Shown piece by piece: positions 8,934-44,086 of a stretch of 64,000 nt of DNA; position 1 is the first letter of the stretch; each line of letters opens with the position of its first letter. The stretch spans positions 33,577,706 to 33,641,705 of the forward strand of contig NC_045139.1 of NCBI RefSeq assembly GCF_008831285.2. Reading direction: 5' to 3'. The position numbers and the translations under genes were made by a program. The notes beneath the pieces were generated by a model that saw only the letters and a list, made by a program, of their open reading frames with translations, was not told the origin of the DNA and did not search any database. Origin of the DNA: Nymphaea colorata (Eukaryota; Streptophyta; Magnoliopsida; Nymphaeales; Nymphaeaceae).

Positions 8934-11900
8934 TCATGCTTTCAGGTACTTCAAAGCATTCATCAACTTTGTATTCCTCTTCGCCTCCCTGATAGATGCC
9001 AATGAATCAAGAAGTAACTCAATGCTGGTGTGAGCTAGAAGAATCTCAGTGAGGCTTTTCATATTTCCAATGGAATCAGGTAGTTTTCTAAATGATGAAC
9101 AGCCTCTTAGGTCCAGCTTCTCAAGATTGGTCAAGTTGTCAAATCCATCTGGTAATACTACCAACTTGTTGCATCCTTGCAAGGATAACTTCTGTAGGAA
9201 ACCAAGTGATCCCATTGATTTAGGGAGCTCTTTAATATCAACAAAGTTGAAGTAAAGTTCAACTAGATTTTTCATACTACCAACTGAAGGAGGTAACGTT
9301 TTTAAGGACTTACAATAGCTCAGGTCCAACTTCTCAAGTTTCATCAAGTGGCCAAGAGTATCTGGCAAGCTTTTCAGCTTGTTGTACCCAAACATCCATA
9401 ATCCCTTTAGCTCCACAAGAGAGCCTATTGAAGAGGGAAGTTGTACAAGAGCAACATTAGTTAGGTAAAGCTCAGATAGTCTTTTCTTATCTCCAATGGA
9501 GTCAGGCAATGTCTTCAATGATTGACAGTATCTCAAGTTTAGCTTTTCAAGTCTAGGCATTACTCCCAATGAATCAGGCAGCTCTTGCAGATTGCTACAC
9601 CTAAACAAAGATAATTGATGAAGATTTCTGAAAGAACCCATTACACCCCACTGCATTGGCAACATCTGCAGAGATCAGTGCATCTGGAGAGGTCAAGGTT
9701 CTTAAGAGAACTTAAGCTGCATATGACATTAGGCAGCCTCTTTAGTTTAGATCATCAAGACAAGTCTAGCACTGCCAACCTATCAAGCTTCCCAATGGAT
9801 TCATCCACTTGGACCAGCTCATGACAACCCTTAAGACTCAATTTTTCTAATCTGGGTGAGCTTGAAAAGTCAGGTGTCTTCTTGAGATGTAAGCAGCCAC
9901 TAAGAATAAGAACTTTCAACTCATTGAAGACGAGCAAAAAAAGCAGAGGAAGACAATCACAAAGAAGCATGTTTCAAAACGATTCAGCAAATGGACCAAA
10001 TTGTATTGAATTGAATTGCTTTTAAATCAGAAAGTCAGAAGTTTGAATACCTTCAATGCAACCAATATAAAAACGATAAAAGTTTTCATCAAAACTGAAA
10101 ATAAAATAAAATAAATAATAACATGCAAGCCTCAAGCAACTGAAAAGGACTAATTAAATAATATAAAATAAACAAAATTTATCTTTAAACAAAAAATGAC
10201 CTTAATCATGGACACTTTATTCATAGGTTCAATTTTGGTAGGCCTATATATGCTGATTCAAACTGATTTTAACAACGCTGAATATAGAAAAAGGAAGAAA
10301 GAGAGAGAATGAAAGAGAGAGATTTAAACTTAATAATATGAGGAAGTGGACCAATATAGTCATGCAATTTTTTTATTTCTAACATTGTTTTTAGAATTTG
10401 ATCTCATGGAAGTGATCTGGATAATTGAATGAGAAGGAATCCATTATTAAATCATCTTGTTTCAACACATAATATGGAGTTGAGAAATTATAAACAACCA
10501 ATTTTCATCTTAGAAGGCTACTCTTTTTGTCCCAGAGAAAATGAGTAAAGGGTTTATTCATGACAAATGATTATGTTTTAGCGGTTGGGTATATACATAC
10601 ATATGCACACACATACACACACGCCAAGACACCCTGATATCAAGATAAACAGAATATTCAACATGATGATGAAGTAAAAGGTAGCCTAACTTTCTTTCTG
10701 CAATAGCATCTTGAGCTCCAAAGCTGAACAACCCTGCTAAGTGACAGTTCAAGAACTGCAACCTTTTCAAGACTGAAGTCATTGGGGAGTGATTTTAGTG
10801 GACAGCCATGCCACTCTAACCATCTCAACCCTGTAGACATATGTTTGAAATTGCCTTTGAATTCTGCAAAGATGGCACGAAGCAGCCTCAGGTTCATCAT
10901 TCTGGCAAAGGATTTAGTTCTCACACGTCTCTTGCTAAGTAATCCTCTAAGGTCAACTACAATGCCTTCAACATTTCCTGTTCCCTGTGCTTGAAAAAAA
11001 GTTTATCAACATAAGAAAAGTGAAAGACCAAGTTAACTGTGTTTTTCTGATCCCTTACCTTTTGATTATCCAATACATCAAGCACTTCATCTGTAATCCA
11101 TAGCCTGCTACACAAGCCTGGATTGAAAGAGCTATTTTCTCGAACAATAACTTCCCCCAGTTCTTGAAGTTGGTCATGCATTTCCAACCTGTTCTTATCA
11201 ATTTTGACAAGTGACCTGTGCTGCAATACTGTTATTGCTAGAGATGCGTAGAAACCACAACTCTTCAATATATCACTTACCTGATCCTTAGTCGGGCTAA
11301 TGAAAAAACAAGCAAGATCAAGAAATATTTTTTTCTCTTCAGGATCAAGGCTATCATAACTTAGTTTTAGGCTTAGCCTCCTCTGTACGTCATCAATGGG
11401 ATATGCTGTAATCCCTCCAACAGATCTTCCCACTCTTTTACATCCTTCTTACCAAATAGAAATGAACCAAGGACTTCAAGTGCCAAGGGAAGTCCACCAG
11501 CAGCTTTTATAATTTTATCAGAGTTATATGTAATCATTTGCCGGTTGACTCTTTTCAAAGGTATGCAAGGAAAACAGTTCAAGCAATTCAACGCGATTCA
11601 ATTCGCCTGGCTGGTAAAACTCATCCTTGTTCAATTTCTGTACATTTAGAACATGTTTATATCTGGTTGTAATGATGATTCTACTTCCCCCACAAAACCA
11701 ATCTCGAGAACCAACCAAGGCATCAAGTTCATTGTTATGGTCAACATCGTCCAGAACTTTGAGAAGACGCTTAATGTGGAGCCTACTCTTGATTGTTGCA
11801 ATCCCTTGACTGACATCAGTTATCTCAAATTTCTCAAAGTTTAGTATCTAAGAAATAAGTTTCTCCTGCGACAAGATCAATCCCTTGTATTGCTTTGATG

Positions 11901-16955: not shown

Positions 16956-17617
16956 TCAAGACTGTCGTTCCACCCAAATGAGGATGGTGGCGATGACAAA
17001 AGAGCATCGATCGATGGCGATAGCGGTAGAGGCAGGCAAGCAGACGCTCGAGTCCACCAGTCCTTGTTCTTCTACCATTGGTTGGCCAAGAACCGAGTCT
17101 AGAAAAGCAGTCTCTTCCTCATCCATGTTTTGCATCTGATCCAGAAAACTCACCCCAGGTTCATCTTCTACCACACAACCTGAGGATGACCCAAAATCGA
17201 AGCTGTTGGGATCAAAGGCTATAGCACCACCACCATGCTCGAGCGATGCTCCAAAGTTGTCATTGCTGCTGCTGGTTGTGGAAGGTCTCTGCTGATTATC
17301 TCCTCTGAAAAGGATTTGGATTCTTCCACGGCCACGGGTGGTAGTTTCCTCCCGGAATGACCGTGGTGCTGCTTCATGATGGAGAGGAGTCGTTGGTGCA
17401 CATTCTCTCCGTCATTACCATTGGCATTCGCTAGAGGAGGGTAGACGAAGGTAAAAGGATTCCCTACCTCGTTGAAGCAGACGATGCCGACGGTGGCACC
17501 AGTGAGACGGCAAAGCTGCTGCGCTTTTTTGAAGAGGCCCTTCCTTCTCTTGGAGAAGGTGATGTGCCTCATCCGCCGATCTGGAATCCATCCCATGTTG
17601 GTCCTCCGCTTTCTCAT
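16956..17617 (-). pseudogene. Type I MADS-box gene (AGL62-like, M-alpha type), frameshifted
   Basis: The best start is the ATG at 17617-17615, opening with MRKRR and then HITFSKRRKGLFKKAQQLC, the core of a MADS domain. It is followed by GNPFTFVYPP, the post-MADS motif of AGL61/62-like proteins. This frame closes at 17219 after 132 residues. A second frame resumes near 17300 and stays open to 16956 (AFDPNSFDFGSSSG, then FLDQMQNMDEEETAFLDSVL), with the acidic composition of a transcription-factor tail. This suggests a single frameshift around 17300. The protein lacks the long helical region usual for the family. Functional relatives act in female gametophyte and endosperm. An unrecognised intron could also explain the break. 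The GC content is higher than in the flanks. Confidence 0.8.
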
Positions 17618-17770
17618 ATCCGTAGCAGCGTCACCGGAGCCACACAAGGGAAGCGACGACACAGGGGAAGCGACGACACCGGAGCCACACAGGGGAAGCG
17701 ACGACACCTCCCCTCTGCAACTCGACACATATCGTGCAGCCTGTGAACGTGCATGTCTCGGCGTGTAGTG

Positions 17771-17800
17771 AGCTTGACTTGTTTTGAAACAAGTCAAGCT
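17771..17800. repeat. 30-bp perfect palindrome upstream of the MADS gene
   Basis: Two 14-base arms, AGCTTGACTTGTTT and its reverse complement, are separated by TG. It lies about 150 bases upstream of the MADS start codon. Confidence 0.9.
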
Positions 17801-18808
17801 TAACTAAAACGAAAACGAGTTTGAATCAAGCTCGAGTTGGCTAGACTCATTTTACATTAACCCGATATTCACCGTTAATAGATTCGATGGTTTTCTTGTA
17901 AAGCTTGGTTTTGGCATTGTTGTATTCATGTTGGAAACCAGGCTACTGCGCAAGTTTGATTGTCTCTTTTGGTAAATAGATTGAGTCGTTCGGTGCAACC
18001 CGCTTTTTTTTTTTTTTTTTTCTTTTCGTTTTTCTATCATCTTAGGTAAGCAAACTATGAAGCTTATTTAGATGAATAAATCATAATTCATAACAACAAA
18101 CTATTGCATATATATAACTAATGCTATTGCAAATATTTTTTAATCTTCAGAATTTTGAGAGGGAAATTTTTCCTCTCACTCCTTATAAACCGAACAAAGT
18201 TCAACAAGATATTCTCTTATACTTAAATTGATGAGTTAGGGCGCTAGGAGTATTACAACAATACCATTTAGATCAATCTTTCTTTTCTTTTAACCAAAAG
18301 TAGTCTCATCATACTATCTTTTTTTCATGGAAGTCTCTTTCTCTCTCTTGGCACCTTCTCTTCATCAGATGTGGCTCGTTTTGTGCAAGGGAATGTCCAG
18401 TTTGCCATTCGGTTAAAGCGCCGCTGTCCGTTTGAGGCTGGGTGACTGTGCCGCTCCGTCTTTCCTCTCTCACATCGCCTCTCTTCTTTTTCTGAACATT
18501 GTATTGTATATTTCTTTTTCTTGCTTCTGTTTTTATGGTTTGTTTGCGGTTTGTTTTTGTATGTAGGAGACCTCTTGTTCCCAAATTTTGTTATGTATTC
18601 CCATTTTATCGGCTCTCTCTCTCTTTTTCGTGTATGTGTGTGTGTATATATATATACTTGCAATTGAAGACGTTGTACAATCTTGCCAACTTCTTGTTAT
18701 TTTTTTTTAAATGATATTATGGGGTAAGCCTTGGTAGTTCTGGCTAGCTTAATTACTTTCAAGAAAAAACAACTTTATGTTGAGACCTCATCGATTTGAC
18801 TAGAGCGA
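17801..18808. other. Intergenic with poly(T) and CT/GT tracts
   Basis: It contains a T run at about 18006-18021 and a CT/GT/AT-rich stretch at about 18610-18660. No gene recognised. Confidence 0.4.
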
Positions 18809-23946: not shown

Positions 23947-25866
23947 ATGCCGCCTCCTCCAAATAAGTCGGATTCCAATCCCAACAACAGAAATTTTGGT
24001 AAAAATGCGTCCGATGATGCTGCGGAAAAAGAAGAGATCTCCATGAACAACCTATGGGTCGGGAACTTGTCCCCGGATACCACGGATGCAGATCTCAACG
24101 AGGTTTTTGGCAAATTTGGCACGCTTGACAGCGTGTGCTCATATGCTTCTAGAAATTTCGCGTTCATTTACTTCAAGCGCCCGGAGGATGCCAAGAAAGC
24201 CAAGGATACGCTACAGGGCACCACGATTCGTGGGAATCCGATTAAGATTGAGTTTGCACGACCGGTTGGTTATTTCTGTTGCTTTTCAGTTAGATTTTCT
24301 TCTTGGTCGATGGTTGTGGTGGTATCGTTGTACGTCAGGGTGCCAAAACTGTTGTTTATTTTATTTCATTTGTGTGATTCCTTATTTCCCTTTCTCTTGG
24401 TTCCTTATCGATCATTTCGTGCGCGATGAGATTGGCGGCAGAGCACCTGCCTTGCGGTGAGATCCGATTATATAACGTTTTCTTTCAGCAGCACCCACGA
24501 TAATATTGAACTGAACATAGCGTTCGAAGCTTTATATGCAGATTATTCCACAAGCAATGCCATGAGAACAACTTTTTATCCTACTCTGCAATGCTGCAAG
24601 CTTATGGTAGGATAATGGGGTGCTTTAGCATCAAATATGCAACTACAAGACTGAGAAGGTTTACAGACATGCTAGTTGTTGCCTTCATCACTCTTCTTTT
24701 CTTTAAAACTAAGTTTCTCATAAACCGGGAGTTTGGGTTCAGGCTGAATGTGCCGCCTAAGACAAGTTGGTCAATTTGCTTTTGGCTCGATTATTTTAGT
24801 TGATTCATCAGGATTTTGGCTTCTAACGTGTTAAATTTCCCATCCTCTGATCTTACTTGATGAATGAAAAACACAGCAAAATAATGCCCCAAAAATGGGT
24901 TAGGATCTCTCCAAAGTTAATTTCCCGGTGTGGTTTCTATCTAGGTTTGCTGTATGCAATCATGTATCAACATGTAGCACATGAGTGACGTCCAAATGCA
25001 TATGCACGCCCTTATTAGATTGCATCCGACAAAATAAAAGAGCTGACACCACTTGTGATGATACGTTGCCATCTTTTACGTAGTTTCCTTTGTAAAGGTT
25101 TTGAGAATGCTAAACTCTAATTTCCGTAGGATTAGCAGTTGTCAACCTTGGTTACCAATGTCAATAAGTGATATAGAGTCGCACTTAATCCACATCTGAG
25201 CCCTAAATCCTCACCAGACAACGTTGAATTTAACCACCGTCGCCAGCCTATTTCATATAATTCTTCTAGGGTATGAGTGAGCCAGTGACCCCTTTTCTTC
25301 ACCAATTTCATATGACTATAGTTTGAAAAGTATGGATTGACATGTGATTGATGATAGAACATTACGATCTTTGAGTTAAACAAATTTCTACTTTGTATTT
25401 CTGATGTAATTATATATGAGTCTTTTATGTTTTGACCAAAACATCATGCTTTTGTTATATCGTCAAAAGAAGGAAATGAAAAATTTAATTAAGAGCTCTC
25501 TTCTCATGAAGAAGCAAGATAAGCGTTATCCATTCTCATCTTGAATCTTCATGATTGACCTGTATTATATATGTGGTATGAAGTTTAAATCTAGTCGATT
25601 GATTGAATGTGTGCATGAGTGGGTGGATGAACATTCCATCACGTAACGTGAGACTGTCCTTATCACAACCCTCTTTATTTGACCCACCCGAGGGGAAAAG
25701 GTCCCTGAGACACCCCATTTCATCTCGTGATTGAATGTCTGAAACGTTTGCCATCCCTTCATACCAAATCATTTATTCTTGTAAATAAATTTTAACTTTT
25801 TTTTTGGTTGGTTGGATTTACTTGTCATCTAAAGAAAGCAAAAATTCAAAGTAAAGGACTCTCTCT

Positions 25867-25915
<49 letters not shown>

Positions 25916-28900
25916 ACTCACTCACTCTTACACACACACACACACACACGTGCACACATGGAATAGGGTGAAAAAATTAATCAAATCAAAAAGTTGGTAG
26001 TAAACATTTATGAGACATGCATGTTACCCAAAAGTTTTAACACTGAAATTCAATTTCTTGTATCCAAATGTGAGAGATTCCTTTTGCTGATCAAGCCTTA
26101 TATTTCATCCCCAAACAGTTCGTTAATTTTCGTTTATTAGCTAATATCAATTCCATATCTTGCGCAGCTCACACATAGATGCACACACACTAAGCATACA
26201 CTTATTCTAAGTGGATCCAACCGCATAGGAATTTTGGACTGTGTATAAGCTTCATTTTGGGACAGGATATGCAAGTGGTCGTAGGGAGATGAGGATGAGA
26301 TTGGAAGTTTGCAATGAGATGTTTGGCTGGTTGGGAGTGGACACGAGAATGGAGATGAGCTTTGGGTCTTCCATATTCTATTGTTTCATCATGAATATTT
26401 ATCTGATAAATCCACTCTAACATTTCCAGCCTCATATTCAGTCCCATTCCACGTGTGCCTTATCCCTGTCTCCTAGATAAAGGATCATCTGAAAGCTTGC
26501 ATTAAGAATAACAATTGTTTCTCTATGTTGTGGAGAAATTTTACAATTTTTTCTTCTGTTTCTGTATAAGTAGCATATACAAATGCGTAAAATAACTTCT
26601 ATACATAGGTTAGCCATCTTCGTAATAACTAAGAATTACATTACAGGCTTTTGGATGTTAGGGCATCTTGTGTCAATTGGCATTTCAAAATTCAAAGTGC
26701 TAATTTTCCTTTAATGATATGTAAACCTTGCCTTCATTTATATTGCTATAGGTTCCAATTTTTTCTCTACCAATTAGATGCTTCTGCCCAACTGGGAAGA
26801 TTAGGACCGTGTCTTAGTGGTGTCTTAGGTAACCTTCAGTTTACGGGATGCTATAAAAAGACGTGGCAGGATGAAGAAATTTTTTAACTTATTATTTTTC
26901 CTTTAAGGCTGTATTTGAGAATTTTGAAGGCACACAAAACTTATCTAAGATCAGTACATGCTTATCCTAGGTGAAACTTATCTAGGAGAATTTGTCTTTG
27001 AGCAATTTCTTTCTCGGTGGCAACCTGATGAGCGGCAAGGAGTATGACTAAACTGGCTTAGAGTCCACCCAATGGATTTGGAAGTTGATGACTATAGGAG
27101 TCTTTGATTGAATGCAATATCTGAGTTGACGTTTACATGTCCAAGCCAATGAAGCCTCCCAAGTCACAACTGCTCCTTTTCTATGTAAAAGGAATATCCT
27201 GAATCCAATGAAAAAGAGAAACATAACTAAAATGAACAAATGCAATGTCACAGGACTAAATTCAGTGGTTGAAGAATGGTGATGGTGCCTGCAGGGCGAA
27301 CAATAACTTGAAGATGAGCTTCAAAGCCCAGATGCAATTGAGGTGCAAATGCAACAGCAGGGATGGGTTACTATGGTTGTGAGTCACTTGATTTGCCGGA
27401 GTTGGTTGACAGGGGATTGGAAGGTGAAGTTGCTAAGAGGGATAAGTTATATTGGGAACATAATTAGGGTACAGTTTTACTATTTGAATTTCTAAAGTAA
27501 ATTACAATTCAAATCGACTAAAATGTTCTTAGTATCTTCATCCTTATTACGTTACTGGTCTAAAAGATTGATAGCGCTAACTATTAAAACAAATACCCAT
27601 ACTTCAGATATTTTAATTTCCAAAAATCCATAAACCAATGTGTAGGACTGTAGGTTACGATTTTTTTTTTCATAAAATGGGTTGCTTAAGGATTTAAAAG
27701 AAAACATAATGAACTTTTCATATAATTCATATTTATGTGTAGTTCTTCTTTTCAATTTAAGAAAACTTATTGACAGCTGTACTACTGCTGTTTTTAATCA
27801 TTTATATTATCTAGTATTTCATTAAACAACTAAGATAATATAATTGTTATATGATAGACAAGTACTGAGTGTGAATTTTATGTGTTATATTATTGTCAAA
27901 TGTTCACATAGGTGGTTATATGTTGTTTTTATATTGACATTTGTTTATACTTTACATATATTAGGACTTTGGTGTTTCTATTTCTTTTTACTATTTTTAT
28001 GAAATTATTTGGTTGGGAAGCTGATGCTTCAATGCCTCACTTCATGCCAGTTAAAACACTCATCTTGTGTCTGCTCATCACATCTAGCAATTTTGAAACC
28101 CAGTTTAAAAGGCGTGCACGTCTATGGATGCAATTTCTTCCCTCAATCAGACATGGCTTGAGGTGAAAAACACCAATAGTTGTTGGAAGCAGTACGTTTG
28201 GGGACATAAATTAGTATATAAGAATGGTCAACATCACATCCTTTTGTTCCTACTTTTGAATTCTGCAACCTTCTTTTGCAATTTGGAGCTAGAGCTTGGC
28301 TTCTGTGATAAGCAATTGGGGCATTGTCTTTCACTAATTCCTGTTTTTGTTAATTGCTTATTTATCTGTAGACATACGTGGGTGGAGAAAATCTTGCATA
28401 CTGTAGGGTCCATCCTCTGGATTTGAAGTCAGTATAGGGGAACTGGACGGTTAAACGATGCTTATAAAAAAACTATGATTTGTGATAGCTACCAAGGCCA
28501 GTGTGGAACAACTATTTTATGTTCTGTGGATTGATTGGGTCATTTAGCAATTGCATAGTATGCCGTGCCTATCTGTATTATATATAAAAAAAATTCCAAG
28601 TAATTCATTTGATATTTCATGCATGCTATGCTGACTTTGATGTGGCATGTAAACACTGATTGGATTGTCTTACAGTCGTCTGTTTGTTTCACTGGATTGA
28701 TCATCTTATATCTAACCTCTATAATAATGTTGTTATTTCTACTAGTAATTATTGCTATTATTATCAATTTCATGAGGTGGTAGGTTTTTTATTTTCCTAA
28801 TGAGCATCAGGAATGTCTTGCTTATATATGAGCTGGAGGTAGTAGTATCGTCTTTTTTGTGGATATTGACGGAAGAAGTGAATATCTGACAGCAGAAATT

Positions 28901-31900
28901 TAATGGTTCGGGGTTGCTTCTAGCAGCATTGGTTTGATTGTATTCTTATTAGTCTTATTTAAATGTGTAGTTCACTACTATTTTGTGAAATAGCTGTCCC
29001 ATAAAGCATCTGATTCCGGTTTATCTGTTTCATATCTTTAGTTCTGAAGCTTCTGAATGCAATATGCCCTGTAGCTTTCCGAGATGTGAATTCTGTTGCC
29101 ATCTATTCCTGATGCAGATCTATTTAGCTTTCAAGTGCTTTTCGTTACTGACTTTATGACATTGATTAGCTTTTTCCTCCCCTAATTTTCTTTCATTTGT
29201 TTCTTTTCCAGGCTAAGCCAGGGAAGCAACTGTGGATAGGAGGGATAAGCTCTTCTGTTACAAAGGAGCAGCTGGAGAATGAATTTTTGAAGTTTGGAAA
29301 AATTGAAGAATTCAAATTTCTCAGGGATAGAAATTCAGCTCTTGTTGGGTACATTCGGTTGGAAGATGCTGCTGCTGCTTTGAAAAATTTGAATGGAAAA
29401 CGTATTGGTGGTGAAGCCATAAGAGTGGATTTTCTAAGATCTCACCCTTCAAAACGAGTATGCTGTATTTATCCTACTGGGTTCATCTTCTTGCTTACAA
29501 CCAATCATTCAATCCACCAACACCTTTTGTTTTTAATAGCATTTCTGCTGTCCTGACAGGATAGTTGGAGTGATTTTCATGACTCAAGAGATGGCTCCTA
29601 CAGTAACAGGAGAAGTGGGGGCCATCCAGATCCATTATGGATGCCGCCAGAACAGAACTTTCCAGATTCATCTGGCTTCGGGCACAAGAGGTATCAGGTA
29701 AATTTCTTAATGCCCTTATCTCATTAGGGCAATGCCTTAGAAAGTAAGTAAAAAGGAGTGCCGCACCTAGTCGGCCGACAATGTTTGAGCTACTTTAATG
29801 CTTGATGATCCTGCAACAAAATCTTGCTTGTGTGCGGTTTGGACACTTCAATTCTTTAATGAAAACCTGAAAATATAGTTTTTAAGATTCATTGCCATGC
29901 TAATCTTGATCACATCTAACAAGGGTTTTATGTGTGGTATCTGATGTTTGGCTAATATATCTATCAAAAGTCAAACCATGTCTATGCTGGGGCTTTTTTT
30001 GTCTATTGTGTGTTTTTTCATGCTTATGCATGTAGTTTATGAATATGTTTTTCCTGTTAAAATGTTTTAGATCCTTCTGGCACAATTCTGGCTTGTTAGG
30101 GATGGATAGCTAATCGGTTTAGTATTTGTTTCAAATAATTTTGGTGCTGGCTGTCTACCTTTTTTGCATCTACGACTAGGCATATGTGTGAAAGGTTCAA
30201 ATATTAAATGCTATTCTTACATCACTGGATTTGACTCATAAAATGATCAAACTACTCCTTTTCAATTTTTTTTTACATTGACTGCTAGTTAGTTCATTTG
30301 CAGCTTTCCTATATAATTGGACTTTTTAGTATACATTGATCACATTTATTTTTGAGAGTAACTAGCTTTTTGTTATTTTTTTTAGCAATCCCAGGCATTT
30401 GGTGGGGGGCGTAAAGAAGGTCCCCCAAGTAATGTTCTGTGGATAGGATATCCACCATCTGTCCAGATTGATGAACATATGTTGCACAATGCTATGATTC
30501 TGTTCGGTGAAATTGAGCGAATTAAATGCTTTCCAGCCAGACATTACTCCTTTGTTGAATTCAGAAGTGTTGATGAAGCCAGGCGTGCGAAAGAAGGCTT
30601 GCAAGGTCGCCTTTTTAATGATCCCAGGATTCAGATATTGTTCTCTAGCAGTGAAGGGGGTCACGGTGATAGAGATAATCCACCATTTTTTCCAGGCATG
30701 AGGGGTCCTAGGTCAGACATGCTTTACAATGATCCACCATTTGGAGGACCCATGGAAATGTTTGGTCATCCTCGCCCTCCTATTCCAAATAATTTCAGTG
30801 GACCTTTAGGTCCAAATGCTATCCCTGGTGCAAACATGTTGATGCGTCCTTTTCCACCTCAGATTGATCCACTCCTAGCGAACCCTGAGGTTCTTCATTT
30901 AGCAGGCCTTCTCCAGAATCTTCCAGAGGCCAATCTTAACAGTCCAATGGGAACTAACTGGAGAAGGGGATCTCCACCATCAGCTTTAGGAATGCGGCCA
31001 CAGGTTGGTCCTCCTGGTGCTTGGGACAGGGATTCTAGTCCTTTTCAAAGAGAAGCAAAGAGATCTCGCATTGGCAGCCCTTTGCCAATTGACGATGGAT
31101 CATTTCGAGCAAGAGAGGCTAGCGAGCATCACCCTGGGGGTTTTGGGCCACAAAATGAGAGAGGTTTGTTGGGTCCTCCTGTAAATGTTCATAGTCAAGG
31201 TCAGAGTGGTCTTTTACCTGGTCGAGCATCTTCTGTTGATCATCTTGGCCGCAAAGATCACCATTCTTCTGTAGATGATGATTGTTGCTGGCGTGGTGTT
31301 ATTGCTAAAGGTGGGACTCCTGTTTGTAGTGCACGGTGTGTGCCTGTGGGGAAGGGTATAGATGCAACGCTGTAAGTTTTATCTTATTTACTTTTAGTAA
31401 ATGGTCTTTAAAGTTGCTATGATAGATGTTGGCTCAGCATATACACTTTTTTCTCTTACATTTTGCAGTCCTGAAACTGTCAATTAAAGTTTCTATGGTA
31501 GATGTTGGCTCAGCATATACACTTTTTTCTCTTATATTTTGCAGTCCTGAAACTGTCAATTGCTCTGCAAGAACGGGGTTGGATATGCTGACAAAGCACT
31601 ACTCAGAAGCCAGTAGCTTTGATATTGTTTTCTTCTTACCAGATAGTGAAGAAGATTTTGCATCCTACACGGAGTTTCTGAGATATCTGAGTGGAAAAAG
31701 TCGTGCTGGAGTGGCCAAGTTTGATGATGGCACAACATTGTTTCTTGTTCCTCCTTCAGAGTTTTTAACACAGGTTTTGAAGGTGTCTGGTCCTGAACGT
31801 CTTTATGGAGTAGTTTTAAAATTCCCTCAGCAATCTTCCAATTTGCACGTTCAACAGCCACAACACCTTTCTCATATCTCAGGCTCCTCACTACCACCCC

Positions 31901-32973
31901 CACCCCCACCACTGCTTCCACCACAAACCCACTATGTTGATAAGCAGCGAATCCCTTCTGTTCAAGCTGATCATGTCAGGATACCTGGTAAAGAGGATGT
32001 TTCACAAATGAACTACACAAGGGGTTTGAATGAGGAATCTATTGGTGTTCCTGGTGCTGCAAACCCTTCACCTGGTGATCCTCGTACAGCACAGTCAGGT
32101 GCAGTAGATTATGGCAGCAACACAACTGCCTCTCAGGTTTCATTGACACCAGAGCTTATTGCCACATTGACTGCTCTTCTACCTGGGACTGTGCAGTCAT
32201 CAGCTTCAGGTGCTGCGCAGTTGCCCTTGAGCTCAGCATCAAAGCTTCCTTCTTTCTCACCAAGCATGGCATCTGAGAAATCAGTGCCATCTCATGGATG
32301 GCAACATGAACAGTCCATTCTTGGTGGTTCTGTTCCACAATCTAGGGAAGAGCAAGCAAGCCATCCATCTCAGCAGTTAGGACTTCCATATAACAATCAT
32401 TCATCACTTCTCTCACAATATGGAAACCTTGGAAGTGTTGGAAATGGTCCAGAACATTCACAGATAATCAACAGTGCACAAGTTGTGAACCCTAACTTCA
32501 TGCACTCACAAACCAGCATATCAAGTGGGTCTGCTGCTGGCTTTGTAACTCCTTCACAAGGTGGACAGTATGTGGTTCCTCCTGGTCAGCAGTATCAATT
32601 TGAAGCTTCAAATGCTGTCCAGAACTATGGCCTCGTAGGTGCTCAAGATGGCAGTGGAGTCTACCAGTCTTCAGTTCTTCCACAGGCCACCTCTGTCTCA
32701 GCTTCTATTCAGTCACAAATTGGAAGTATGGCTCAATCGCAGGCACAATTAGGAGCTGGTAAACTTAGCACGGAATTATCCGGTCAAATTCAGCAGCTTC
32801 AGTCTATGTCAGCAGGAACAAGTCAGGCTACTTCTGAGAGTGAGGCTGAAAAAAATTTGCGCTACCAGTCAACGCTGCAGTTTGCTGCCAACCTTCTCTT
32901 TCAGATTCAGCAGCAGCAACAGCAGCAGCAACCAAATGCCCCAGTCTTCCAAGGCTCCGGAGAGCAACAATAG
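23947..32973 (+). CDS. FPA: Flowering-time RNA-binding protein FPA (three RRMs plus SPOC)
   Basis: Five coding exons join in phase: 23947-24264, 29212-29457, 29560-29697, 30386-31371 and 31545-32973, giving 1038 residues (Arabidopsis FPA is about 900). RRM1 spans about residues 34-105 ([19 protein letters not shown]). RRM2 spans about 111-183 ([19 protein letters not shown]). RRM3 spans about 250-325 ([19 protein letters not shown]). The SPOC domain (about 534-660) is split by the last intron. A Gln/Ser/Pro-rich tail ends in QQQQQQQQ and GSGEQQ. FPA acts in the nucleus, promoting proximal poly(A)-site choice, including on antisense FLC transcripts, and belongs to the autonomous flowering pathway. 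Arabidopsis FPA limits its own expression by early polyadenylation in intron 1; here intron 1 is very long (24265-29211). The last intron has a duplicated 3' splice site. Confidence 0.96.
24265..29211 (+). other. FPA intron 1 (about 4.9 kb)
   Basis: GT at 24265 and CAG at the 29211 boundary, phase 0. It contains a long microsatellite (25861-25950) and several AATAAA-like motifs, for example around 25784. No convincing coding exon or transposon protein was seen inside. By analogy with Arabidopsis, a proximal poly(A) site could lie here. Confidence 0.8.
25861..25950. repeat. (CT)n(CACT)n(CA)n microsatellite
   Basis: About 45 bases of CT, then CACT units, then CA units, inside FPA intron 1. Confidence 0.95.
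31410..31561 (+). repeat. 76-bp tandem duplication with a second 3' splice site in FPA
   Basis: Copies at 31410-31485 and 31486-31561 differ at three positions. Each contains the polypyrimidine tract, TTTTGCAG and the exon start TCCTGAAACTGTCAATT. Splicing to the first acceptor (exon from 31469) reads LPETVN and then TAA at 31485-31487. Splicing to the second (from 31545) reads on through the SPOC domain. Confidence 0.95.
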
Positions 32974-33272
32974 TGGACATCTTCTATCAGGTGTGTATTT
33001 CTATTTTGCTTTTTATTCTTGTAAATATTCTGGGGTATCTATTTCTTCTTAAGATTGCATGCATTAGATTCATTCTCCCTGCTCTGCATGATATTCGATT
33101 CTTGTTATCTTTGAACTGTTACACTGGCTTAACTCTGTTCGTGCTTTTAGGCAAGCGTTTTCTAAATTATATATCCCTATTTTTGTCATCATGATCTTCT
33201 CCCATTCGGTACTCCGAGAGCTTCAGAGTTCAGATTATGCATGATATCACTGTGTCTTAAAGGAGAGGAGGG

Positions 33273-33278
33273 AATAAA
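33273..33278 (+). terminator. Candidate FPA poly(A) signal
   Basis: AATAAA followed by A-rich sequence, 300 bases after the stop codon. The actual cleavage site is not known. A GT-AG 3' UTR intron starting near 32991 is also possible. Confidence 0.4.
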
Positions 33279-33299
33279 AAAATAAGTAGGAGTTATCTG

Positions 33300-34477
33300 T
33301 GATGCCATGGTTATTATACAATAAGTATGAATTTTGTATTTTGTATTTTGAGTTGAAGGATGTCTAAAGACTCTAAACTCTAAACCTTCATTATTACATG
33401 CTTGTTAGCATTTTTTATTTAGTTTTATATTTTGTTTAGTTTTTGCAGTGATACAAGTTGAAACAACTAAATTTTTTATAATTTTGCAATGCAGTAGATG
33501 CACTGGAAAATTCAGGATTTTCCTTCGTATATTTTGCATCTTGTCCTATATAATGTTATCCATGGTTCAACAATAAACAAAGCCATTGGTTTCTTGCCAC
33601 ACCCGCACCCGAGTCATGTCGACTCGTCAACCTTTGTGAAGGTTTTGTGTTACTTAGCAAACATGCTACCATCTGTACCTCACATATTCTTTTAACAGGG
33701 AGAAGTCAGAAGAAAATATGTGAGTTTTAAATTTTTAATTGATTAAAGTTGGATAATGTTATGCTACTAACCCTAACTCTATTTTTATGATAAATAAATT
33801 AATTATACTAGTAACTTGTTGCCTGTTAAAAGTGGGGTTAATCTATCATTCAAGATCCATTGTCTCTTCACGATTGATTTGCAAAACTCATTGTCATCAA
33901 AAGGTAATTTGAGCAAAATCTCGCGATATTTACAAGATGAACAAGTAAAATAAAAATATGGGGAAAATCTTTCCAGATTTTGACAATCTCTGAAAAAAAT
34001 GAAGATCTCGTGATTTTTTTATGTTTTTTCACTTTTTAGTTTCTAGTCTCATTTATTTTATTTTTTGTAATTTCGAGGGTTTTTGAAAAATTTCCCAGAT
34101 TTTTTGCTATATTTTCGAAAAAAACTTTACCGATATTTTTTTGAGAATGATAGTTATGAGTTTGAAACAAAATATAGACTTTATTCATAACAATGAATTT
34201 TTCCGTGTGCATATATGCTCCAGCATGCAGGTGTAGGTCTGCAAGTGCATGTACCAGGTATATGTGAGCATGCATACCTTTGAATATGTAAGGTCAATAT
34301 TCTACAAGTACGCTGTGTTCCATTGAAATTCTCTTTGAAAGACATGGACAAGTTTATAGTAATGAATGCACTTGCAATCTTTTTGCATGTTACTTGTCTT
34401 AAACAAAAAGTGTTCATGCATAAAGCTTGTCATCCAGCTAGATCAATCAACTCATTTTCTTGACCCAAATTGGTATG
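33300..34477. other. Intergenic, nothing recognised
   Basis: AT-rich sequence. A T-rich stretch at 34010-34140 resembles the first 120 bases of the window in wording and composition, perhaps copies of one old repeat. Confidence 0.35.
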
Positions 34478-34751
34478 AATAAGAACATATGTATGTGTGC
34501 ATGTATGCTATGTTTGTACTATGTCTTTTTCCTTGACTTCAAGTTAAATTGGGTTAGACGAATGGCTTATCTTGTGTATTTGCCTGTTGTTACTTGAGTT
34601 TGGTATTTGGATAAAATAAGAACATATGTATGTGTGCATGTATGCTATGTTTGTACTATGTCTTTTTCCTTGACTTCAAGTTAAATTGGGTTAGACGAAT
34701 GGCTTATCTTGTGTATTTGCCTGTTGTTACTTGAGTTTGGTATTTGGATAA
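34478..34751. repeat. Perfect 137-bp tandem duplication
   Basis: 34478-34614 and 34615-34751 appear identical, starting AATAAGAACATATGTATG and ending TATTTGGATAA. Perfect identity means a recent event or an assembly artefact. Confidence 0.93.
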
Positions 34752-37559
34752 TCATGTGTTCTTGCATGCATTGCCTCATTATTTTATGTTCCTGTTATTT
34801 CTTCTTTCTTTTTGTGTTACCATGTGATATATTCAACAGAAGTTATTCATTTTATGTGGCACAAACATCACCAAGCATGACCAAGGATCTTGGTTTTAAT
34901 GGCTTTGTAACTAAGTTTAGGATAAATTGTAGCTGTAATAGAATGTATCGAATAGAAATTCTGTTAGGCAGGTGACTGTTGTTTACTTGTCAACTTGATC
35001 AGAAGTTATAACTCATTTCAGTGCCCAAACTTTTTCCATGAATGAGATTGTAATTGGGTCTACTTCAACCCATTCGACTTGCAAATTTAGCTTGGAGAAA
35101 AACCACGGGTCTGTTTTAAGATCAAAATTTTGCAAGGAGATGTTCAGTTTGGTTACACTTCAAAATTATCACACAACTCCGTTTGGGCACATCCTAGAAC
35201 AACTCCGTTTCGGCACATCCTATAAATCTAAACATGCTTAGGCACGTGTCAAATCATGCTGGCAGTTGATAAAATGAACATGGTTCATTAGCCTCAAGAA
35301 AGGTCATGATAAGGATCTTTGCTCGGCATATGATATGTGCTGCTACCAAAGCGAGTCTTTGGTTTAAGAGACGAATCTTGAACTGGCTTGAGTAAATAAC
35401 ATGCTGAACTCAATTTTACAGAGCGTAATATAGTGGCGCCACTGCATGAAATGGCCTATAAAATATGTTTACTAACTGTTGGACCGTGGATCACCAGAAT
35501 TAACGGATTATTGCAAGACGGAAGACAATATTCAAGTGTAAAATGATTTAAGGAGTGCGGCCTGATTGGATCTATTGGGGTCTAATATGGACAAACGAGT
35601 AAGAGGTAAGACATTATCCAAATATAAATGACTTTAAGGGATGCAGCCTGGTGATCTGTTGGGGTCGAATATGGACAAACGAGTGGATCTCCCTTAGTAT
35701 ATTTTAGCCACAAAAATTTAAAATTCACCTGGTCAACCTGGGGGTTTAATTGTGTTTAGTTCTATGTTAAACAATTTAGGGAGTGTTAGAATGATAATAA
35801 AAATTCTAGCACCTGGAGGATACCAATTTAGATGCATTCTTTCCAATTCGTACAGCTGCAAGCACAAGTTGTGGATGGATTACTTTGTTGTAGTGCTTCA
35901 GAGTAATCATGAATTCACATTTCCTAGTCAAAACATATTTACTGTATTCGCCCAACAGATATTCACAGCAAAATAAATCTTCATTAAACCTTTTTAGAAG
36001 CTTGTCGTATCTGCTCTGGAATTTTTATTCAAATTCCTTTGCATAAAATACAAAAAAAGTTGATAGAACGTAAATGCATGTTGCTATGGTGGATTTCTTA
36101 AGTGTGGGAAGGACAACTGTATAATATATAAACATAAACCTGAGGAGTACTCTGAGCAGGAAACATGGTGCCATAGATATGTTTTACACTGTGACTAGGG
36201 ACTCGTGATCTATAGGAATTGAATTGAAGTCATCATTCAGAAAGCTCGGACATCCTAATTTCTGTGTATGGGTATCTCTTCCCATGAGACAGAATACCAA
36301 TTCCTAGTTATTAGAATCTCAATGTTCGTGTTTGGGATCCTAACTCCTTTCCAGAACATGATTGTCTTGCATGAAATATCAATTACTAGAACTTAATCAC
36401 AGTCTCCTCATGAGTCTCCATTTCTGCAAGACTCCCCAATTATTATTATTTGTCGGATGTGTAAAAAAAAGTGTACTATTTACTGTAAATGCAACTTGGA
36501 ACTTCTGGTAAAACCAAAAAACGTTACTACGTTCAAATTTTAGAAATGGTGCGTCAAATTTTTGTGTGGTGACAAGGAAATGGGTTTTATTATCTATCCA
36601 ACTTTTCATTGTGAAATAATGGGACTAAGTTTTTCTTCGGTTGTGAAATCGTTTATGATTGTTTCCTTTGTTTAGTTTTAGTGAAAACATATTTCGAGTT
36701 TGTAGGGAGATGCCTTATTGAGAATCTTGCTTTTCTTATACAAACAATCTTGCTCTTATTGTTTCTGAGTTTTTTGGCCCTCCAAGACAGTTCTGTTATG
36801 CATTGCAGTTATTATCTTATAAAAGCAGTCATTGTTCCAATATTTGCCAACATGGACATAGGATCTGCTTGCCCTGTCGTTGTGTTCTATTCCAAGAGTA
36901 TATCTGGTCATTCGTTCGTATCTTTACCCTGTCCAAGCTTTAATCCAATTAGGTTTGCCATTGAACAAAACACTAGTAAAAAAGAAAAAAGATATTTACA
37001 TCTGTTTTGGTTCTTAAGGCGAAGCGAAGTGTACAGATGCGCTTTATTCAGATTTCCCTGCCATCATCATCACATGAGGTATATTGAATCTGCCGCTAAT
37101 ATGCCCCATCTTTGTTATCAAATAATATAGCAAATCCTCCACCCTTATATCATTTTATCAAGTATTGTTCCCGTTTAGTTCTCAAATGAGTATATAAAAA
37201 AAAAAACTGGCAGTGGAATTCACTGCTGATGCATGGGCTAAATTATTGATCGAATTAGTATTCCATAAATGCTCAGCTTCTCGTGACGGCTGAGGATTTT
37301 AGCTGAAAGTAAATGTGGGTCTTGATATCCAAAAAGCATGTGAAGGTTGCAATTATAATACATGACAAGTGATGAGTAAATGTCTACTGCTTGATATGTG
37401 TGTGTCTAAAATGCTTTGCCGATAAAATTGGTTGTTTAAAGTTTATATAGGCATGTCATTGTCTAAGACGATCGATGTGAACGTAGGTTGTTCGGTTTTC
37501 CTTGTCTGCCTTTTGAGAATCATAGCTATGGTCTATGGGAGTTGATATTTAAAGTGTAC
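34752..37559. other. Intergenic, nothing recognised
   Basis: Short spurious frames only. A small direct repeat (AACTCCGTTT followed by GGCACATCCTA) occurs at 35176 and 35201. Confidence 0.35.
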
Positions 37560-41511: not shown

Positions 41512-42985
41512 AAATGGTTTTCAATTAAAGAGAAAAAAAGTTCTATAATGAGATGGGCCTTAGAATGAGCAGTCAAAGTTTGATTCTCATGGGTGCCACT
41601 CAGTAGTGGGCCAGAGTGGCTCGTGCCGCGGAGGGCGGGGTCAAACTCAATACACCCTCAAGCATCTAATCTGCTCAGATTGAAATGGGGAGCATTTCCT
41701 GTTTAGGATTAAGTTATCCGTAGACCTTTCTAAAAGAAAAAAGGGGGAAAAGGAAGTTCAGTATATGCTTGATAAAGGTTCGAACTGAAAAACCTTCAAA
41801 TTGGAAAAACTCCAGGAATCAAAACCCCACTCAAATTAAACCACTGGTTCATATATTTTGTGATACGAAATACTGGATAAATGAGGTTAACAAATGAGAG
41901 TTTACTCTCTATTGTCCCTTTTTGCTGAAAGATGGCAACTGGCAAATGAACAGTTGCACCATCAAACAGGTCCGTTTCTTCTCACTGTTCCGAAAGATGG
42001 AAACACATAGGCTTCTTTCTTTCCTTCACTTTCTTCCTCTCTTCCGAGTGCTAGTGTATGGCATGATCACTAGCCTGAGATTTGCATATTTACAGTATTA
42101 AGACGTATGGACCATCAATGCATTATTACCCACAAGAGTAAGAATTTCGACTACGCCATGATAAGAACATGACTGTGATTAGCATACTGGTTCTGTTTCA
42201 GGACAGGGAGTTATAGGCAAAGTGTTATCAAAGTATGTTTCAGGATCCAGTGTTATCAAAATATGGGTTAACAGTTGAAGTTGGTAGTGCAATTTCATCT
42301 AGAAAAACAAATATTCCAGAGTATCTGGAACAGGTAGCCACCCGCAGAATGCTGTTGGTGCTGCTCTATTGTTTTTTCAGCAGAAGATGTAAAGGGTCAT
42401 CGAGCTTGCTTTGGCAAGTCCATTCAAAACCACCTGAGACCAAGAAAGAGCTCTCGAAAAGATTGTGCCATTTCTCAAAAATTTCAAAAATTTGAAATTT
42501 ATGCTTTGCTGATATAGACGAAAACCATATGTTCATCTCAATTCAGACCTCCCAAAAGGAAATCCGTTCTCATCCACATTGAGCAGTACAGAATTCTACT
42601 CCATACACTTGGTCCACTTTTTCGTTCAATTCATGGCCGACCTTCCAATATTGAGACCACTAGCTCTTCAACTTTCTTACGTGCTATGATGTTGCCCAGA
42701 ACTTTGGCCAAAATGGCAGGCACCATTTTCTTCCTCAAGCCAAGAAAAGACAGTTGATTCCCCCGTTGAGGAGCCACCGTGCAGGTTCACCCATAAGAAA
42801 CACAGTTTTTAAATGTAGCCAACCTCCCCAAATGCTGAAAACTGATGGAAACAGGGAAAAGTGCTAAAATCTACAGTCCTCAATTATTTGGAAAAGTTCA
42901 CCACTGTTCTTCCTTGACCACCAAAAGCTAATCTATATCTACAGAGTCACGTCCCCACACACTCTACTTCCGGATCCTCAGACTC
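41512..42985. other. Upstream flank of the serine acetyltransferase gene
   Basis: No gene model. A frame at 42235-42495 (FQDPVLSKYGLTVEVGSA) follows a CAG and is not recognised. It may be a gene fragment. Confidence 0.3.
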
Positions 42986-42987
42986 CT

Positions 42988-42996
42988 CTATATTAA
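42988..42996 (+). promoter_or_regulatory. TATA-like box of serine acetyltransferase gene
   Basis: CTATATTAAG-type motif about 50 bases before the ATG, implying a short leader. Confidence 0.35.
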
Positions 42997-43039
42997 GCTT
43001 CCACATACAAGTTCCTTCACAAGACCTTTGCATCCCTCC

Positions 43040-44086
43040 ATGACTTCTCTTACCCTTTCCCCCTCCATCCCAGAGTCATCATCCTTCCGCAGCAAACTCT
43101 CTAATAACAAGAAATTTCACAGACGAATGACAGCATGCATAGAGGGCTCGACTTTGAAAGTTGGCACCAGACGACTATCATTCAACATGGATCGATTTTC
43201 GACTACCAATCAAACAGCGGTTTACCAGCTTGTTGAGCTCTCAAAGCCCTTGCAACACCCAAGAATCTGTGAGAGGGATGAGCTATGGCTGAAGATGAGG
43301 GAGGAGGCGATGAGGGATGTGGAGCAAGAGCCGGTGCTGGAGACGTACTACAGAAATGCTATACTCTCACATGACTCACTAGAAGCAGCCCTGGCCGGCC
43401 ATCTGGGAAACAAGCTCTCCATGACTTGTCTGCCGGGTTCCAGCCTAGCCAGGGTCTTCTTATGGGCGTTCCTTGAAGAGAGCACCATCCGGTCTGCGGT
43501 CCGGGAGGACCTGAAGGCAGTCAAGGAGAGGGACCCAGCCTGTGTAAGTTATGTTCAGTGCCTGCTCAACTTCAAGGGCTTCCTAGCAGTTCAGGCTCAC
43601 CGGGTGGCTCACAGTCTATGGACCAAGGGCCGGGCACCGCTGGCCTTGGTGATACAGAACCGGGTTTCGGAGGCCTTCGCCGTGGACATACATCCTGGTG
43701 CAAGGGTAGGCAAGGGAGTACTGCTGGACCATGCTACCGGGGTCGTGATCGGAGAGACTGCCGTCATTGGCGACAACGTGTCCATCTTGCACAATGTGAC
43801 GTTAGGAGGCACCGGCAAGGCCGGCGGCGACCGGCACCCGAAGATCGGAGATGGGGTGCTGGTGGGTGCTGGTACGCATATCCTTGGTAATGTACAGGTA
43901 GGTGCGGGGGCCAAGGTCGGGGCTGGCTCAGTGGTGCTGAAAGAGGTCCCGGCCAGGACCACTGCAGTGGGGAACCCGGCGAGGTTGGTTGGTGGAAGGG
44001 ACAACCCCGTTAAGTTGACCAACATTCCTAGCTTGACTATGGACCATACCTCCTTCGTATCCGACTGCTCGGATGATGTAATCTGA
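43040..44086 (+). CDS. SAT: Serine O-acetyltransferase (SERAT)
   Basis: Intronless, 348 residues from the first in-frame ATG. It acetylates serine with acetyl-CoA to O-acetylserine, the first committed step of cysteine synthesis. The N-terminal helical domain (about residues 78-200) is followed by left-handed beta-helix hexapeptide repeats (about 215-315). Catalytic residues fit the family: Asp216 in VDIHPG and His231 in DHATGVVIGET, followed by the acetyl-CoA loop GGTGKAGGDRHPKIG. The C-terminus ends DDVI; the terminal Ile is the residue that docks into O-acetylserine(thiol)lyase in the cysteine synthase complex. The first 55 residues are rich in Ser, Lys and Arg with few acids, like a plastid or mitochondrial transit peptide, but Met50 could give a cytosolic form. 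The region coding the conserved core is markedly GC-richer than the flanks. Confidence 0.96.
   Translation: MTSLTLSPSIPESSSFRSKLSNNKKFHRRMTACIEGSTLKVGTRRLSFNMDRFSTTNQTAVYQLVELSKPLQHPRICERDELWLKMREEAMRDVEQEPVLETYYRNAILSHDSLEAALAGHLGNKLSMTCLPGSSLARVFLWAFLEESTIRSAVREDLKAVKERDPACVSYVQCLLNFKGFLAVQAHRVAHSLWTKGRAPLALVIQNRVSEAFAVDIHPGARVGKGVLLDHATGVVIGETAVIGDNVSILHNVTLGGTGKAGGDRHPKIGDGVLVGAGTHILGNVQVGAGAKVGAGSVVLKEVPARTTAVGNPARLVGGRDNPVKLTNIPSLTMDHTSFVSDCSDDVI

Follow-up and report, generated by a model that had tools for sequence, protein, structure and literature searches.

Two near-identical 3' splice sites in the FPA gene of Nymphaea colorata, the products of a probably tolerated tandem duplication

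In the FPA gene of Nymphaea colorata, the last coding exon is preceded by two 3' splice sites that lie in adjacent copies of a short duplicated segment, which raises the question of whether these acceptors constitute a switch between a truncated and a full-length protein or are the trace of a mutation that the gene tolerates. The initial annotation of this locus leaned to the former, describing a built-in choice within the region encoding the SPOC domain and a second layer of control in a gene already known to limit itself. The question is addressed here using the window, i.e., the whole 64-kb stretch of DNA analyzed, the 408-Mb genome assembly to which it belongs, and the published record.

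The window lies on contig C2, and the FPA gene is located on its + strand, at about 23.9-33.0 kb of the window (Table 1). The position of exon 1 rests on an in-frame join to 29212, with a candidate ATG and donor inferred from the sequence. The modelled protein consists of 1,038 amino acids and combines three N-terminal RRMs with a C-terminal SPOC domain: the RRM_1 profile scores above the cut-off in the exon 1 open reading frame, exon 2 and exon 4, and the Pfam SPOC profile matches the product of exons 4 and 5 with 93.1 bits. A comparison of the SPOC part limited to PDB sequences identifies a single entry at the E-value of 0.001, namely Arabidopsis FPA (5kxf_A, E 2e-60, 122 residues), and the alignment is unbroken across the 31371/31545 junction, where the Arabidopsis stretch is KGIETKLPEVVNCSART. 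These matches bear out the original assignment of the gene to FPA and of the domain to SPOC. Intron 1 (24265-29211, as modelled) spans about 4.9 kb; in Arabidopsis, intron 1 of FPA contains an autoregulatory poly(A) site (PMC8116057).

Table 1. Features of the FPA locus, with positions in the window
Feature	Position	Strand	Basis
FPA coding exon 1 (first RRM)	23947..24264	+	open frame, RRM_1 match in surrounding ORF
FPA coding exon 2 (second RRM)	29212..29457	+	RRM_1, E 6.7e-14; AG/GT boundaries
FPA coding exon 3	29560..29697	+	open frame, AG/GT boundaries
FPA coding exon 4 (third RRM, SPOC start)	30386..31371	+	RRM_1 and SPOC matches; donor GTAAGT at 31372
Duplication copy 1: end of the intron with the upstream acceptor (AG 31467-31468) and the first 15 bases of the exon	31408..31483	+	
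Duplication copy 2: downstream acceptor AG 31543-31544; TT match extends to 31561	31484..31559	+	
In-frame TAA stop upon use of the upstream acceptor	31485-31487	+	frame reading
FPA last coding exon (rest of SPOC, tail), downstream acceptor to TAG	31545..32973	+	SPOC match, 5kxf junction, 1,038-aa frame
Candidate 3'UTR intron, 17 nt past the normal stop	32991..33448	+	GT donor, TTTTTGCAG acceptor, picked by eye; inferred

A second FPA gene was not found in the 408-Mb assembly by a search that may miss matches, and the other SPOC matches in the assembly are three weaker loci. The nearest relative of FPA is a SPEN2-like gene on C3, with 50% and 48% identity over 98 and 48 residues of the exon 4 query, respectively; this query yields one further weak match (34%). 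The SPEN2-like gene possesses an intron in the homologous position (L003, 1207-1502), which is 296 nt long and ends in TTGCAG, and reading of its sequence reveals no duplicated end. This intron does not serve as a strict single-acceptor control because a further acceptor-like string, TTTTATGCAG, occurs in it near 1310-1319.

A repeat search of the FPA locus identifies two direct copies of 76 nt that are identical in 73 of the 76 positions (96%), and TRF reports the same repeat at 31408-31561 (period 76, 2.0 copies, score 287). The chance of at least 73 matches in 76 is ~3e-38 (binomial, one placement). The three mismatches (31416 G / 31492 T, 31422 A / 31498 G and 31459 C / 31535 T) are all intronic, at positions -53, -47 and -10 relative to the start of the exon, and the exonic part is identical. 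Given that both adjacent copies contain the pyrimidine tract, the AG and the start of the exon, the duplication extends across the 3' splice site. The 76-bp tandem duplication with three mismatches that was noticed at the outset is thus present in the assembly, with two adjustments: it starts at 31408, two bases before the 31410 given originally, and the 17 duplicated bases of the last coding exon are reached by counting the TT at 31560-31561, the number being 15 otherwise.

Several other properties of the segment were considered. The 76-bp unit has two matches in the 408-Mb assembly, both at FPA, and dispersed or mobile copies elsewhere were not found in this search, which may miss matches; accordingly, a mobile or dispersed unit was rejected. 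Two 12-nt pairs of inverted repeats are short and were taken as chance occurrences. A regulatory RNA fold at 31372-31620 was rejected as well (z -0.55; 54 of 200 shuffles fold equally well or better), and there is no Rfam match at gathering scores within the window.

The two acceptors, TTTTGCAG followed by TCCTG, end at 31468 and 31544 and share the donor at the end of exon 4. Their cores are near-identical, the sole difference being C/T at -10, and a candidate branch point, CTCAG, is located 32 nt upstream of the AG in both copies. Splicing from 31371 to 31545 keeps the frame open and yields the full-length FPA, whereas splicing from 31371 to 31469 gives a protein of 568 amino acids that ends in ...DATLPETVN at the TAA stop. 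In the product of exons 4 and 5, the Pfam SPOC match extends over residues 297-421; the short form stops at residue 334, so that it retains 38 of the 125 SPOC residues, and produces no SPOC match at the E-value of 0.001. Both outcomes agree with the initial annotation, which had the upstream acceptor lead to a stop after LPETVN with the loss of most of the SPOC domain, and the downstream acceptor to full-length FPA, the latter now matched at the junction by Arabidopsis FPA. The accompanying statement that both acceptors have the same local sequence applies to the core sites but not to the sequence that follows them.

This difference in the following sequence bears on which acceptor is likely to be used. 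The 76 nt after each AG were scored using 3-mers, and also 4-mers, trained on the exons and introns of FPA itself. With 3-mers, the sequence after the upstream AG scores -0.256, with none of the 109 exon windows at or below this value and 143 of the 222 intron windows as high; the sequence after the downstream AG scores +0.157 (48 of 109 exon windows do not exceed this score, and 8 of 222 intron windows reach it), values that come from one gene with overlapping windows and no hold-out, the downstream window having 21 nt in a training exon. The 4-mer scores concur (-0.468 upstream vs +0.204 downstream). Thus, the sequence resembles an intron past the upstream AG and an exon past the downstream AG. 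Splicing relies on the contrast between AU-rich introns and GC-richer exons (stated with references in PMC4974935). Because the two sites are equal only locally and their contexts differ, an even contest between them is not to be expected by default, in spite of the earlier suggestion that the two isoforms may compete. The downstream acceptor appears favored given the exon-like sequence after its AG, its being the sole considered route to full-length FPA, and the failure to find a second FPA; we infer that it carries productive splicing.

A transcript spliced at the upstream acceptor would probably be prone to decay. In plants, nonsense-mediated decay (NMD) is favored by a 3'UTR longer than 300-350 nt or by a junction more than 50-55 nt past the stop (PMC4417159). 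The stop that follows the upstream acceptor is separated by 1,503 nt from the candidate 3'UTR junction 32990/33449, so that the sequence after the TAA exceeds the 300-350 nt of the long-3'UTR rule for alternative splicing coupled to NMD; the presence of a junction more than 50-55 nt past this stop hinges on the inferred 3'UTR intron at 32991-33448. The normal stop would escape the junction rule because it lies just 17 nt before the candidate junction. With about 1.5 kb of 3' sequence past the stop, the decay-targeted transcript proposed at the outset is a prediction that fits the plant NMD rules. In Arabidopsis FPA, poly(A) sites have been reported within the terminal intron (PMC8116057), which is consistent with, without proving, a UTR intron in the gene analyzed here.

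The truncating stop is no sign of design because a stop is encountered in 568 of the 811 60-nt frames sampled from the FPA introns and because 76 is not divisible by three. The background rate of similar duplications was estimated by counting doublets, i.e., repeats with a period of at least 40, a score of at least 50 and under three copies, in the window and in a sample of 20 stretches (160 kb in total; 8 from C2, 6 from C3, 4 from C4 and 2 from C1) that were chosen at round positions, not at random. After exclusion of 4 of the 15 sample rows, which have at least three copies (two in L008 and two in L013), the sample contains 11 rows that correspond to 10 arrays, two rows of L022 being overlapping, and any counted doublet is present in 7 of the 20 stretches. 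The window contains 7 doublets and is somewhat richer than the sample; matching of at least 95% is rarer, being seen in 3 of the 11 sample rows and in 3 of the 7 doublets in the window, that of FPA included. Extrapolated from this sample to the genome, there would be roughly 25,000 doublets, about 7,600 of which would match as closely as the one in FPA, and with such numbers, doublets that hit splice acceptors are to be expected. Two further doublets lie beyond the gene, namely a perfect 137-bp direct tandem doublet at 34478-34751, about 1 kb past the candidate 3'UTR intron, and an 86-bp doublet with 81% matches at 35515-35684.

The divergence of the copies gives a rough indication of age. Three differences in 76 sites correspond to d of 0.041 (95% interval 0.008-0.115), and three in the 59 intronic sites to d of 0.053. 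At 1.5e-9 to 7e-9 substitutions per site and year, these values translate into ages of about 3-18 My as point estimates, with intervals of 0.6-50 My that reflect the few events involved. The difference of 4% between the copies makes a very recent origin of the duplication improbable, albeit within this wide interval. The persistence of both AGs says little because a few bases often survive anyway.

We consider it likely that this is a neutral, tolerated duplication in which the downstream acceptor is dominant and the upstream acceptor accounts for no more than a minor transcript that is prone to decay. Under this scenario, ordinary slippage or repair would have copied in tandem a segment of 76 bp that reaches from the 3' part of the SPOC intron into the start of the following exon, the 2 bp (TT) common to its ends being compatible with such an origin. 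Splicing would then proceed mainly to the downstream acceptor, with rare or low-level use of the upstream one; transcripts of the latter kind, with their early stop and long 3' sequence, would probably be degraded by NMD, and the duplication would have been tolerated rather than selected. As far as the DNA goes, the mutation is of an unremarkable type, nothing in the sequence shows its use as a switch, and within this one genome no sign of selection for retaining the upstream site was found.

Among the alternatives, it is unlikely that the upstream acceptor takes a sizeable, unregulated share of splicing, steadily lowering FPA output in the manner of a mild hypomorphic allele. Appreciable upstream use is possible because the two sites have equal local strength and the same CTCAG and the upstream site is closer to the donor; moreover, a human reporter library showed no order preference for equal tandem acceptors, a result that may not hold in plants, and its authors ascribe exceptions to the order effects at donors to sequence distant from the site (PMC6783452). 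However, the exon context favors the downstream site, and the copy divergence suggests, with its wide interval, that the duplication has been tolerated for some time.

A working stop-or-go switch, in which the acceptors compete and the unproductive share sets the FPA level on top of the feedback at the intron 1 poly(A) site, appears improbable. The near identity of the acceptors and the predicted NMD features speak for such a switch, FPA autoregulates through poly(A) site choice in intron 1 (PMC8116057, PMC4981400), and U2AF and U2 components co-purify with FPA (PMC8116057). Nevertheless, the upstream AG is trailed by intron-like sequence, the stop is expected by chance, and doublets are frequent, so that the built-in choice and the second layer of control envisaged originally are unsupported; furthermore, the splicing changes in the Arabidopsis fpa-8 mutant were deemed indirect (PMC8116057).

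There is little reason to suspect an assembly artefact, in which two haplotypes were joined in tandem. Heterozygosity can reach a 4% difference such as that between the copies, and the two copies are observed in assembled sequence. Against this explanation, the unit sits within a single 36-Mb contig; the region was matched once in the 408-Mb assembly, neither a single-copy haplotype nor a second copy being found by a search that may miss matches; and similar doublets are frequent across the assembly, although these, too, are observed in assembled sequence.

Highly speculative is the idea that the duplication has been retained as a dosage valve, whereby acceptor choice in the SPOC intron, sensitive to the level of U2AF or of FPA itself, would send a regulated share of transcripts to decay or to an RRM-only competitor of full-length FPA. 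In Arabidopsis FPA, mutation of two residues on the SPOC surface did not impair the functions that were tested, and according to the authors, SPOC may be dispensable for 3'-end control (PMC4981400). Because these mutants kept the tested functions, an RRM-only FPA, if made, might not be inert.

The closest precedent that we identified is the potato RdRp gene PGSC0003DMG402000361 (PMC4974935), another plant gene in which a short segment over an intron-exon boundary is duplicated in tandem; as in FPA, the branch region, pyrimidine tract, AG and first exon bases are doubled and the copies differ by point changes. In the potato gene, a new intron is spliced, as documented by 106 RNA-Seq reads (PMC4974935). 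An analogous intron gain in FPA, with splicing to the upstream acceptor followed by removal of a small new intron that runs from a donor in or past the copied exon region to the downstream acceptor, was rejected as hardly credible: the duplication is of the same type, and A-to-G at 31498 creates a donor-like ATG/GTAGAT in copy 2, but the resulting 47-nt intron (to 31544) leads to a stop, and all 4 GT or GC donors compatible with a minimum intron length of 40 nt (introns of 41-66 nt) lead to an early stop at 567-568 amino acids, none yielding the full-length frame.

The FPA locus also resembles tandem alternative 3' splice sites in general, with one donor, two AGs and one unproductive product with NMD features (PMC9264592, PMC6783452); in Arabidopsis, alternative 3' sites outnumber alternative 5' sites by about two to one (PMC9264592). 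Unlike other tandem sites, the extra acceptor of FPA stems from a recognizable duplication, and its use is putative. The likeness to the autoregulation of Arabidopsis FPA is that the output of the same gene would be limited via a truncated, non-functional transcript; there, the choice is between poly(A) sites in intron 1 and has been shown experimentally (PMC8116057, PMC4981400), whereas here it would be a putative choice of acceptors in the SPOC intron. The FPA case adds an example to the known class of short tandem duplications that cross a 3' splice site. Among the literature matches listed (titles and openings of abstracts), none deals with a duplicated acceptor in FPA, and such work may exist.

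With respect to the neighborhood of FPA in the window, the product of an open frame on the - strand at 17219-17803 resembles a type I MADS-box protein, and that of a long single open frame on the + strand at 42932-44086 resembles a plant serine acetyltransferase. On the - strand at 8934-11448, about 12 kb from FPA, there are leucine-rich-repeat and NB-ARC-like open frames which may represent a TIR-type resistance gene. In Arabidopsis, FPA controls the termination of such resistance genes (PMC8116057); the nearness of the two genes may be due to chance.

If both acceptors are used, the locus would provide a clean natural test of the choice that a plant spliceosome makes when near-identical sites differ mainly in the downstream sequence, and this test would sit in a gene that, in Arabidopsis, restrains its own output. 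If the downstream acceptor alone is used, this would suggest that the choice depends on the exon context and not on the AG as such, and would serve as a caution to annotators against a false, truncated FPA model.
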